From NCBI RefSeq assembly GCF_035989265.1, contig NZ_JAYKZX010000003.1:620001-684000 (forward strand): a stretch of DNA of 64,000 nt, written 5' to 3'. This stretch comes from Sphingobium sp. HWE2-09 (GTDB lineage Bacteria; Pseudomonadota; Alphaproteobacteria; Sphingomonadales; Sphingomonadaceae). The notes beneath the pieces were generated by a model. The model was not told where the DNA came from and ran no database searches. It saw nothing but the letters and a program-made list of their open reading frames with translations. This document shows positions 5,162-62,657 of the stretch, piece by piece. Within the stretch, counting starts at the first letter, position 1. Each line of letters opens with the position of its first letter. A program made the translations under genes and the position numbers.

Positions 5162-5217
5162 GCCGGGTCGTTTCGGCCGTTCGAAGTCTGCCCCTATGAT
5201 GATTAGAGAGCATCGTT

Positions 5218-5279
5218 TTCCCGCGCAGGCGGGAACCCAGTTCAGACGGTGGGACTGGATTCCCGCCTGCGCGGGAATA
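5218..5279. repeat. Palindromic intergenic repeat, family 3 (copy A)
   Basis: Arms TTCCCGCGCAGGCGGGAA and TTCCCGCCTGCGCGGGAA flank a short core containing CCCAGTTCAGA. Related copies are at 21186, 36344, 38917, 62549 and a half copy at 62658; the element inside truB (29029) is a variant. It sits between the cyclophilin gene and queA. Confidence 0.85.
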
Positions 5280-5310
5280 CCCGTCTCCTGGGGACAGGGC
5301 GTATGATGCC

Positions 5311-21150: not shown

Positions 21151-21185
21151 GAGAATAAGCACCCCAACATCGCCAATGGGGCCAT

Positions 21186-21269
21186 GTGCTCCTGCGAAAG
21201 CAGGAGCCCAGTCCCCCGGTCACGCGCTTTCTCAACCGCGGAACTGGGTTCCTGCCTGCGCAGGAACAC
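21186..21269. repeat. Palindromic intergenic repeat, family 3 (copy B)
   Basis: Inverted arms GTGCTCCTGCGAAAGCAGGA and TTCCTGCCTGCGCAGGAACAC around CCCAGT / AACTGGG. It lies inside the nusA-infB operon, about 30 bases before the ylxR start, and its frame-extended reading would add a false N-terminus to YlxR. Confidence 0.8.
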
Positions 21270-21297
21270 GGGCCAGCCAAGAGGAGGGGGCATCCCT

Positions 21298-21960
21298 GTG
21301 ACCGAACGCAAATGTATATTGACCGGCGACCGCGCCGACCCAGACATGTTGATCCGCCTGGCGGTGGGACCGGAGGGGCAGGTGTTGCCCGACATCCGCG
21401 CCAAGGCGCCGGGGCGGGGTGCCTGGATCGGCGTGTCGCGCGCGGACCTTGAAACCGCGATCGCCAAGGGCAAGCTCAAGGGCGCGCTGGCGCGATCGTT
21501 CAAGGACGGCGCGCTGCTGATCCCCGATGGTCTGGCGGAGATGATCGAATCCGGCCTGCGCAAGACGCTGCTGGACCGGCTGGGGCTGGAATCGCGCGCG
21601 TCGATGCTGCTGACGGGGTCGGAAAAGATCGACGTCGCCTGCCGCAAGGGGCAGGTGCAATTGTTGCTCCACGCCGCCGATGCGGCGGCGGACGGCAATC
21701 GCAAACTGGACCAGGCGCTGCGCGTCGGACAGGAAGCGGAAGGCACGGATTTGGCGGGCACCGTCTTGCCTGTGGACCGCGACGCCCTATCTATGGCAAT
21801 GGGACGCGACAACGTCGTCCATATCGCGGTCACCGACTCGCGTGCGGCGTCGCGTCTGCGCGGCGCTATCGGCCGCTTGGAAAGCTATCTGGGTTGCGCT
21901 AACGGGGCGCCTGTACAGGGGGAGCATGACTCCACCGATGTGCCGGACGTGGTCGATTAG
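21298..21960 (+). CDS. YlxR/DUF448 RNA-binding protein with L7Ae-like C-domain
   Basis: A 220-residue protein from GTG 21298, chosen because GAGGAGGGGG lies 7 bases upstream; the longer frame from 21184 is built of repeat sequence. The N-terminal domain (VTERKCILTGDRADPDMLIRL, RGAWIGVSR) is YlxR, found next to nusA and infB in most bacteria. Its C-terminal half (SEKIDVACRKGQVQLLLHAADAAADGNRKL split) resembles the L7Ae/L30e fold, a fusion typical of alphaproteobacteria. It probably binds RNA. The tail is acidic. Confidence 0.85.
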   Translation: MTERKCILTGDRADPDMLIRLAVGPEGQVLPDIRAKAPGRGAWIGVSRADLETAIAKGKLKGALARSFKDGALLIPDGLAEMIESGLRKTLLDRLGLESRASMLLTGSEKIDVACRKGQVQLLLHAADAAADGNRKLDQALRVGQEAEGTDLAGTVLPVDRDALSMAMGRDNVVHIAVTDSRAASRLRGAIGRLESYLGCANGAPVQGEHDSTDVPDVVD

Positions 21961-28411: not shown

Positions 28412-28493
28412 CGTCACCCCGGACTTGATCCGGGGTCCCGCTGTCTTGTGATGGGAGGAAGAAGCGGGATCCCGGATCAAGTCCGGGATGACG
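28412..28493. repeat. Palindromic intergenic repeat, family 4 (copy A)
   Basis: Arms CGTCACCCCGGACTTGATCC and GGATCAAGTCCGGGATGACG enclose GGGGTCCCGC...GCGGGATCCC. The second copy is at 41586-41671. It lies between the divergent HAD and truB genes. Confidence 0.85.
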
Positions 28494-28563: not shown

Positions 28564-29547
28564 ATGCATGGCTGGATCATCCTCGACAAACCGCACGGCC
28601 TTGGCTCCACCCAGGCGGTGAGCGCGGTCAAGCGCGCGCTGCGCACCAGTGGTGCTGGCAAATGGAAGGTCGGCCATGGCGGCACGCTCGATCCGCTGGC
28701 GACCGGGGTTCTGCCGATCGCGGTGGGGGAGGCGACCAAGCTGGCGGGCCGGATGCTCGACAGCGACAAGATTTACGACTTCACCGTCGCATTCGGTGTC
28801 CAGACCGACACGCTCGACCTGGAAGGCAAGGCGATCGCCGAGAGCGACGTGCGGCCTACGCTGGGGCAAGTGGAAGCGGTGCTGCCGCGCTTCACCGGCG
28901 AGATCGAACAGGCGCCGCCCGCCTATAGCGCCATCCTGATCGACGGCCAGCGCGCCTATGACCTTGCCCGCAAGGGGGAGGAGGTCGAGATGAAGTTGCG
29001 CAGCGTGACGATTCACCACCTCGAAATCCGTCATCCCCGCATAGGCGGGGATCCATCTCTCAATAGTGGGACTGGGCGCGAGGTGTGGGAGATGGGTTCC
29101 CGCCTTCGCGGGAATGACGACCCGTTGGACTGCATCACCCTCACCGCCCATGTCTCCAAGGGCACTTATATCCGCTCCCTCGCCCGCGACATCGCGCTGG
29201 CGCTGGGGACGGTCGGCCATGTCACCATGTTGCGCCGTATCAAGGCCGGGCCGTTCACGCTGGAAACCGCGATAACGCTGGACAAATTGGACGAAGCTGC
29301 TAAGGGCGGCGGCATCGGTGGGCTTATGCTGCCGTTGACGGCGGGGCTGGACGACATCCCGGCTCTCCCCGTCTCTCCCGATCAGGCCATCGCTCTCCGC
29401 CAGGGGAAGATACTGACCGGGATCGCCGCTGCCACTGGCCTTCATCTGGCGACCGACGGGATCATCCCCGTCGCGCTGGTCGAAATGCAGGATGGCGACA
29501 TCCGTGTGGTGCGCGGTTTCAACCTGATGTCGAGGGAAGACGATTAG
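28564..29547 (+). CDS. truB: tRNA pseudouridine(55) synthase, with in-frame palindromic insert
   Basis: TruB makes pseudouridine 55 in the T loop of tRNA. The 327-residue product has HGWIILDKPHGLGSTQAV, the catalytic Asp in GGTLDPLATGVLPIAVG (about residue 43), APPAYSAILIDGQRAYDLAR and SKGTYIRSLARDIALALG. Between the VTIHHLEI strand and LDCITLTAHV lies an extra stretch of about 30 residues (roughly residues 155-185) encoded by a palindromic repeat at 29029-29119 that is otherwise intergenic. The frame stays open and all catalytic motifs are intact, so the enzyme is probably active with a surface loop. rpsO starts at the base after its stop. Confidence 0.95.
   Translation: MHGWIILDKPHGLGSTQAVSAVKRALRTSGAGKWKVGHGGTLDPLATGVLPIAVGEATKLAGRMLDSDKIYDFTVAFGVQTDTLDLEGKAIAESDVRPTLGQVEAVLPRFTGEIEQAPPAYSAILIDGQRAYDLARKGEEVEMKLRSVTIHHLEIRHPRIGGDPSLNSGTGREVWEMGSRLRGNDDPLDCITLTAHVSKGTYIRSLARDIALALGTVGHVTMLRRIKAGPFTLETAITLDKLDEAAKGGGIGGLMLPLTAGLDDIPALPVSPDQAIALRQGKILTGIAAATGLHLATDGIIPVALVEMQDGDIRVVRGFNLMSREDD
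29029..29119. repeat. Palindromic repeat inside the truB coding sequence
   Basis: Outer arms CGTCATCCCCGC and GCGGGAATGACG, inner arms GATCCATCTC and GAGATGGGTTCC, core GTGGGACTGGGC. This is the family 3-like element usual between sphingomonad genes, here read through in frame as part of TruB. Confidence 0.85.
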
Positions 29548-36343: not shown

Positions 36344-36408
36344 GTGTTCCCGCACAGGCGGGAACCCAGTCCCGCCCTCTGAACTGGGTTCCCGCCTGCG
36401 CGGAACAC
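36344..36408. repeat. Palindromic intergenic repeat, family 3 (copy C)
   Basis: GTGTTCCCGCACAGGCGGGA and TCCCGCCTGCGCGGAACAC arms around CCCAGTCCCGCCCTCTGAAC. It lies after recN. Confidence 0.85.
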
Positions 36409-36434: not shown

Positions 36435-36689
36435 ATGACCCATAACCGTCGAGACATGGTAGGCCTTAACGCCGCCATCGCGGAGGCCTGCCCGATCATT
36501 ACCGGTTTCTTCCAGCACGTCGAAACCGTGCCGGTGGGGGTGTGCAGTGCCATGTGTTCACGCGGAGACGCGAAGACGCAGAGATTTTTAGCGGCCTCCG
36601 GCCCCTTAAATGATGCCGGGCAGCGACCTTCGACGGCCTCCGCACTACCCCTCCGCCAACATCCTCCGCGTCTCCGCGCCTCCGCGTGA
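36435..36689 (+). CDS. Possible small protein, C-terminus made of repeat sequence
   Basis: ATG 36435 has GGAGG 8 bases upstream and opens an 84-residue frame (MTHNRRDMVGLNAAIAEACP...). From about residue 41 the coding sequence is the family 6 palindrome (36556-36691), so the true C-terminus may have been replaced by the repeat. No family is recognised and the opposite strand is also open. Treat as doubtful; otherwise this 460-base gap between recN and ligA holds only repeats. Confidence 0.25.
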   Translation: MTHNRRDMVGLNAAIAEACPIITGFFQHVETVPVGVCSAMCSRGDAKTQRFLAASGPLNDAGQRPSTASALPLRQHPPRLRASA

Positions 36690-36691
36690 AC
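36556..36691. repeat. Palindromic intergenic repeat, family 6
   Basis: Outer arms GTTCACGCGGAGACGCGAAG and GTCTCCGCGCCTCCGCGTGA with closing AC. The centre contains GCGGCCTCCGGCCCC. Only one copy is seen in this window. Confidence 0.75.
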
Positions 36692-36740
36692 AATCAAAGG
36701 CGAGAAGCGCTTGCTTTCGCTGATGCAAGACAGACGCTAA

Positions 36741-62540: not shown

Positions 62541-62548
62541 CGCACGCC

Positions 62549-62613
62549 GTGTTCCCGCGCAGGCGGGAAGCCAGTCCCGCCGTTTCAACTGGGTTCCCGC
62601 CTGCGCGGGAAAA
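62549..62613. repeat. Palindromic intergenic repeat, family 3 (copy E)
   Basis: GTGTTCCCGCGCAGGCGGGA / TCCCGCCTGCGCGGGAAAA arms around CCAGTCCCGCCGTTTCAACT. It starts 8 bases after the prsT stop. Confidence 0.85.
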
Positions 62614-62657
62614 CGGCTGGTTTGCAATCCTGACTCGATGATATCATCACATGGCAC

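Follow-up and report, generated by a model that had tools for sequence, protein, structure and literature searches.

Palindromic repeats that add sequence to proteins are known from Rickettsia and from a 2013 survey of REPs, mostly as scattered cases as far as the available part of the survey goes (PMC3733652). That part reports REPs in the tRNA pseudouridine synthase B genes of S. maltophilia, E. litoralis and S. alaskensis, cites RPE-1 in truB of R. conorii, equates the CGTC-1 and CGTC-4 elements of R. conorii with RPE-6 and RPE-4, and states that CGTC REPs have no dedicated transposase; its remark on a shared insertion site is about recB in two species of Xanthomonas. That truB can carry palindromes is already known, and the original prediction that such insertions were undescribed for sphingomonad tRNA enzymes falls with the listing of S. 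alaskensis and E. litoralis. What the prior literature, in the parts available, did not show is the recurrence of many families at one tip: the same part of PMC3733652 holds no description of it, and a literature search, with most subscription papers outside its coverage, returned nothing closer to this pattern.

The element described here shares with the CGTC-1 REPs, as the available part of the survey defines them, the CGTC end, an 8-bp stem starting with A-T, a 4-nt loop, a CCA tail and the head-head dimer, as well as an alphaproteobacterial setting, no dedicated transposase and some in-gene copies, truB included. It differs in that one tip common to many families is a feature here. The RPE of Rickettsia, as presented in that part of PMC3733652, are likewise palindromic repeats lying in frame in conserved genes, whereas in the present case a single tip is used again and again, across a family, by six or more DNA clusters of palindromes. 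REPINs and the GTAG REPs mobilised by RAYT are also short palindromic units, often paired, dispersed and without genes of their own; unlike them, the truB element ends in CGTC rather than GTAG and lies in a genome with no Y1_Tnp match.

A CGTC-type element within the truB reading frame

The window analysed here is a 64,000-nucleotide stretch of the Sphingobium sp. HWE2-09 genome, with these features at truB:

28564..29547, plus strand: truB, tRNA pseudouridine(55) synthase, 327 aa, reading frame intact (from ORF, profile and fold)
28999..29028, plus strand: hairpin strand before the insert, residues 146-155 (AlphaFold model)
29029..29119, plus strand: palindromic element of the CGTC REP type, two units with CGTC ends outside, encoding residues 156-185 (definition from the available part of PMC3733652)
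29029..29055, plus strand: REP unit 1, with CGTC, an 8-bp perfect stem, the 4-nt loop ATAG and a CCA tail (same definition)
29093..29119, minus strand: REP unit 2, with CGTC, a stem paired at 7/8 positions, the 4-nt loop GAAG and a CCA tail (same definition)
29131..29154, plus strand: hairpin strand after the insert, residues 190-197 (AlphaFold model)

The palindrome spans 91 nt, starting with CGTCAT and ending with ATGACG, and 26 of the 31 positions pair in its outer 31-nt arms. It is absent from the repeat-finder output because the arms have no common exact 9-mer; an arm-consensus search allowing up to three mismatches matched both arms, with matches in none of 100 dinucleotide shuffles of the window. 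Folding predicts one long stem, at z = −3.7 against mononucleotide shuffles (−5.7 with other margins). Both units carry the terminal CGTC, the 4-nt loop, the CCA tail and an 8-bp stem with A-T first, paired at 8/8 positions in unit 1 and 7/8 in unit 2, and the tags lie outside, CGTC opening the element at 29029 and its complement closing it at 29119. Judged against the definition in the available part of PMC3733652, the element fits the published CGTC-1 REP as a head-head dimer. It does not fit a GTAG REP or a REPIN with a RAYT, its end being CGTC and the own genome having no PF01797 match.

As predicted, the palindrome is read through without a stop: the frame stays open across 29029-29119, and the protein scores 220.8 bits against the TruB equivalog profile TIGR00431 (cut-off 151.45). 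Its fold resembles E. coli TruB with a T stem-loop (1k8w, the best solved structural match; TM 0.82/0.88). The insert is modelled as a disordered loop between the two strands of a β-hairpin, with pLDDT below 50 for residues 159-178, and sequence comparison with chain 1r3f_A places it between residues 163 and 169 of that chain. The hairpin tip is probably surface-exposed and directed away from the RNA. The expected addition of about 30 residues near 155-185 is right for what the DNA encodes (30 residues, 156-185) and too high as a net gain, which comes to about 23 residues over most insert-free Sphingobium relatives because these carry some 9 other residues in a short tip of their own. Nor do relatives lack just these residues, the outcome proposed as decisive; they have the short unrelated tip or another insert.

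Many TruB positions are invariant in 70 aligned sequences, including the GTLDPLA motif, to which we presume a catalytic role, and the conservation suggests that the insert-bearing enzyme remains active. An assembly error, which the original prediction had named as a possible refutation, or a dead gene deserves almost no credence. The assemblies of G020 and G276 do break at or near the site, and in G005 the truB frame is broken at an insert of family D (below) and again downstream, where damage and assembly error are indistinguishable; the window's gene, however, is intact inside a 3.2-Mb contig and keeps the residues invariant in its 70 aligned relatives, and many independent assemblies contain insert-bearing genes that are intact. 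The G005 sequence (L061) comes from a draft genome with 7% contamination.

Within its own genome the element gives at least 55 matches, counted on both strands and with 40 of 119 candidates scored; they represent 19 distinct places of near-full length, truB among them, and some partial ones. The element is hence dispersed and repeated, and it lies in frame and stop-free in a conserved gene that lacks it in some relatives. This bears out the suggestion that a palindromic repeat dispersed through the genome has left an RPE-like copy in frame. The flanks of the 19 copies show no common target by eye. Three further hairpins in the window (5215-5280, 36350-36403 and 62546-62617) have similar arms, as had been noted, but no CGTC ends, so their build is similar to rather than the same as that of the truB element. 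Also present in the window are another CGTC-ended palindrome at 28412-28493, about 70 bases upstream of the truB start, with 31-nt arms that are 94% complementary, and an inverted repeat at 36555-36692 with CGCGGAGACGCG-like arms, which resembles the F-type truB insert of other species. A search for a Y1_Tnp (IS200/RAYT; PF01797) gene found none in the own genome and a match in 5 of 14 control genomes, in agreement with the statement, in the available part of PMC3733652, that CGTC REPs have no dedicated transposase.

Palindrome families at the TruB hairpin tip

TruB turned up in 119 of 120 relatives (72 from the same genus). The stretch flanked by the two hairpin strands could be compared in 70 of 73 same-genus genomes, the own included (left out were G005, with its broken frame; G020, split over contigs with a B-type start; and G064, partial), and many of these relatives carry other palindromes at the same tip. 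We assigned the inserts to classes by peptide pattern:

Class A (the window's): RHPRxGGxP...RLRGxDD
Class B: SSPQGGEDSAACPQGG...
Class C: PVRFELVE...STGSNRT
Class D: SSPARGG... or LPGTGRGT...GPPPRAGEE
Class E: RHAELVSAS...LKQVQGDD
Class F: SASPRE...
Class G: VRPELVEG...STSSARTD
Class H: LPFRGG...PSPEGEG
Class I: a small class

Single-linkage clustering of the insert DNA gave six clusters with at least four members and one with two. The largest, of 45 inserts, lumps A, E and G with a non-palindromic class Z and is joined at least partly via composite inserts, which is why the peptide patterns were used instead; the count of eight families is our own classing, and the six DNA clusters are the firmer figure. 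Peptides of different families have no common sequence. Copies of A, B and C all occur in the own genome.

Of the parsed rows, 27 of 70 for the genus, 23 of 107 for the family (two rows being common to both) and 36 of 79 for the named loci reach a fold of z ≤ −3.5; the control, equal-length windows elsewhere in the same genes, gave 8 of 1240. By peptide, classes A-I take in 42 of the 70 genus and 30 of the 107 family rows (40 and 29 before three rows were reassigned), counts that include short remnants such as L042, L057 and L189; the three are L014 and L017, now B, and L190, now F-like. In the neighbour-protein tree described below, L134 stands as D. No insert (class '0') is present in 27 of 70 and 45 of 107. 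Among the named loci (labelled Sphingobium, Sphingomonas, Novosphingobium, Erythrobacter, Sphingopyxis and others) plus the window, 44 of 81 fall in classes A-H, a share that may be inflated since the query that retrieved these loci as its best matches itself carries an insert; the family sample is fairer. That sample held 119 genomes from 96 genera, of which 117 matched, giving 113 sequences and 107 parsed rows (G266, G276, G282 and G326 were left out). Of its six unparsed rows, five (L255, L260, L277, L278, L297) look insert-free by eye and L296 has an H-type element with a disturbed following strand; in the named set 79 of 80 were parsed, and L154 is class E by eye. The non-palindromic extension Z (...GRPDPYDP..APLELAD...) occupies the tip in 24 of the 107 family rows (e.g. 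L193, L194, L201, L215, L227), and palindromes of A, E and G also lie beside it (L223, L234, L231, L287). One record, L156, is titled Bacillus sp. 2B10; it groups with Sphingomonas sp. Leaf32 at support 100 and is probably mislabelled.

In wider samples, 133 of 142 genomes matched across the class and 149 of 150 across the phylum; in both, insert excess was read from coordinates. Among the phylum-wide matches listed, an excess above 20 residues occurs in five genomes, all of family f1, and the largest excess among the remaining genomes listed is 14 (G435). Of the class outliers scored, L170, L173, L176 and L177 do not fold and L171 reaches z = −3.3; L174 (G193), outside the window's family, has a long insert in the same hairpin (fold unscored). 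Large insert excess at the TruB tip was seen in the window's family, and a few class outliers exist.

Repeated landing and its possible causes

Event counts were taken from a FastTree tree of five neighbouring proteins (68 loci, 2250 columns) rather than from a TruB tree. On it the insert class changes at least 27 times, or at least 24 times after branches below 95 are collapsed and resolved for the fewest changes, with losses counted among the changes. By its neighbour proteins the window is nearest, among named records, to S. psychrophilum (97% over 2241 columns); the two, carrying A and B respectively, are sisters with support 100, and a second sister pair with unlike families consists of Novosphingobium sp. 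Chol11 (B) and S. quisquiliarum (F). Descent of every insert from one ancient event, with later divergence, would account for the use of the same tip throughout, and inheritance is likely within group B: in truB, the G033 and G070 copies are 93% similar, as against 75-77% likeness to the query for the other near-full-length B copies of G033, which indicates that this group was probably inherited for a while. Against a single origin stand the differing sequences, junctions and, for D, frames, together with those 24 or more changes, and we regard it as highly improbable. Because many relatives have other palindrome families at the same tip, the pattern is that of a hotspot and not of one insertion. 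These comparisons show the TruB hairpin tip to be a recurrent landing site for many palindrome families in sphingomonads and erythrobacters, and we conclude that 29029-29119 is a real in-frame REP insertion at such a recurrent landing loop.

We located 18 distinct CGTC elements (A and E) by their six leading bases, leaving out L027, at offset 39, which is no element by fold. These elements start at offset 21 in 14 cases, 24 in three and 99 in one, and all are read in the frame beginning RH. Family B begins at 21 in 12 rows, C at 18 in five and F at 12 in five, while D starts at 13, 15, 16, 18, 19 or 24 and uses two reading frames. The truB frame is open in all 76 distinct folding inserts, partly by construction since the parser requires an open frame; the other five frames are open in 30-57%. 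Hydropathy does not explain the choice: among 70 inserts, the frame in use was the more hydrophilic one in 25 (p = 0.11).

To place truB among other genes, we aligned 16 genes, truB included, from the named loci and the window (9 to 81 sequences per gene). In truB, 37 of 81 sequences have an insert that is 10 aa or longer and folds at z ≤ −3.5, and every one of these sits at the same core column; the 15 neighbouring genes together have six, one in pnp and five in the gene at 21151-21957. These five (L092, L105, L121, L151, L152) lie near the start of that gene, possibly upstream of its true start codon, and the gene itself sits between nusA-like and infB-like genes. The neighbour names nusA, infB, rbfA, rpsO and pnp are ones we assume from sequence and order. 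In infB, 99 length inserts are spread over 36 of 71 sequences and none reaches z ≤ −3.5 (lowest −3.4); length tolerance alone therefore does not predict palindromes.

These observations bear on active targeting, in which the elements or a moving enzyme would prefer the DNA of the truB tip or older palindrome remnants there. The near-constant junction of the CGTC elements, always in the same frame, and the scarcity of palindromes in other length-variable regions such as infB keep targeting a serious rival, and inserts are also reported within truB, be it at this tip or elsewhere in the gene, of a Rickettsia and of S. maltophilia (PMC3733652, available part). We nevertheless judge it unlikely, given the six offsets and two frames of family D, the want of a common target by eye in the own-genome flanks, and a second, unrelated gene that behaves alike with junctions varying by a few codons.

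That gene is the one place of A in the own genome, besides truB, that lies inside a conserved domain, in a Pfam scan of ten long spanning ORFs from nine loci out of the 19 near-full-length places:

L007:821-1948 (G000:C3:1424024-1425151), minus strand (L007): class-V aminotransferase with an in-frame A element at residues ~121-149

The domain (PF00266) covers residues 9-363 of 376, and we take the enzyme to be cysteine-desulfurase-like. Among its 30 best-matching loci (L299-L328, the own included), a choice that may over-represent inserts, nine reach z ≤ −3.5 at about the same place with inserts that are A, G-like or other, and several more loci look like remnants. In this the second gene behaves like truB. 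Three more places lie in frame before conserved domains (MFS, FliP and T2SSG) and may precede the true start codons.

Constraint on the inserts

The inserts evolve under relaxed constraint: in all of 39 non-independent pairs with a common insert of at least 78% identity, dN/dS of the insert, at 0.27-5.15, exceeds that of the remaining truB sequence, at 0.10-0.34. The dS of the insert is below that of the gene in 35 of the 39; this could stem from a later insertion, from correction templated by the hairpin or from constraint acting on the nucleic acid. Remnants that no longer fold (L049, L054, L042, L019) also occur. In the D-type inner hairpins (e.g. L021, L030, L050, L035), the sequence varies by copy and the pairing stays good, by eye.

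Selection for a benefit, whether from added length or disorder in the protein hairpin or from an RNA hairpin within the truB-rpsO-pnp transcript, would fit recurrence at one tip, and the low insert dS could reflect constraint on the nucleic acid. Yet the peptides of different families are unlike, many relatives are insert-free, remnants lose folding, and seven truB-borne B inserts give no net support for covariation (term +2.02), although 5 of 53 pairs changed on both sides. A benefit is in our estimation quite improbable, and we infer that tolerance rather than benefit explains the retention of the inserts.

The reading we prefer, and consider probable, is a REP-like insertion at a length-tolerant hairpin tip that has been hit repeatedly, with in-frame, stop-free copies kept. 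A 91-bp REP-like palindrome without genes of its own would have inserted into truB at the β-hairpin tip; the tip would tolerate extra length, and selection would have kept the copy because it was in frame and stop-free. In sphingomonads and erythrobacters, different palindrome families would enter the tip again and again, the inserts then being shortened, lost or replaced while the rest of TruB stays under ordinary purifying selection. Three findings sit uneasily with this reading: the length inserts of infB, none of which folds; the 14 of 18 CGTC elements at one offset, tighter than tolerance requires; and the low dS of the inserts, which would not be expected from simple neutral drift after an insertion in a common ancestor. 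The broader proposal that the TruB tip is a preferred landing site for unlike palindromes, by DNA targeting or through a benefit of loop lengthening, and so repeatedly generates new coding sequence is possible, if doubtful.

One loop of a conserved enzyme that has been entered many times, with remnants decaying, amounts to a natural replicate experiment, in which one may ask which frames survive, how fast inserts decay and whether landing is random or targeted. The TruB tip is also a defined place where the movement of CGTC REPs between strains could be caught. For annotation, length variants of sphingomonad truB need not be errors.
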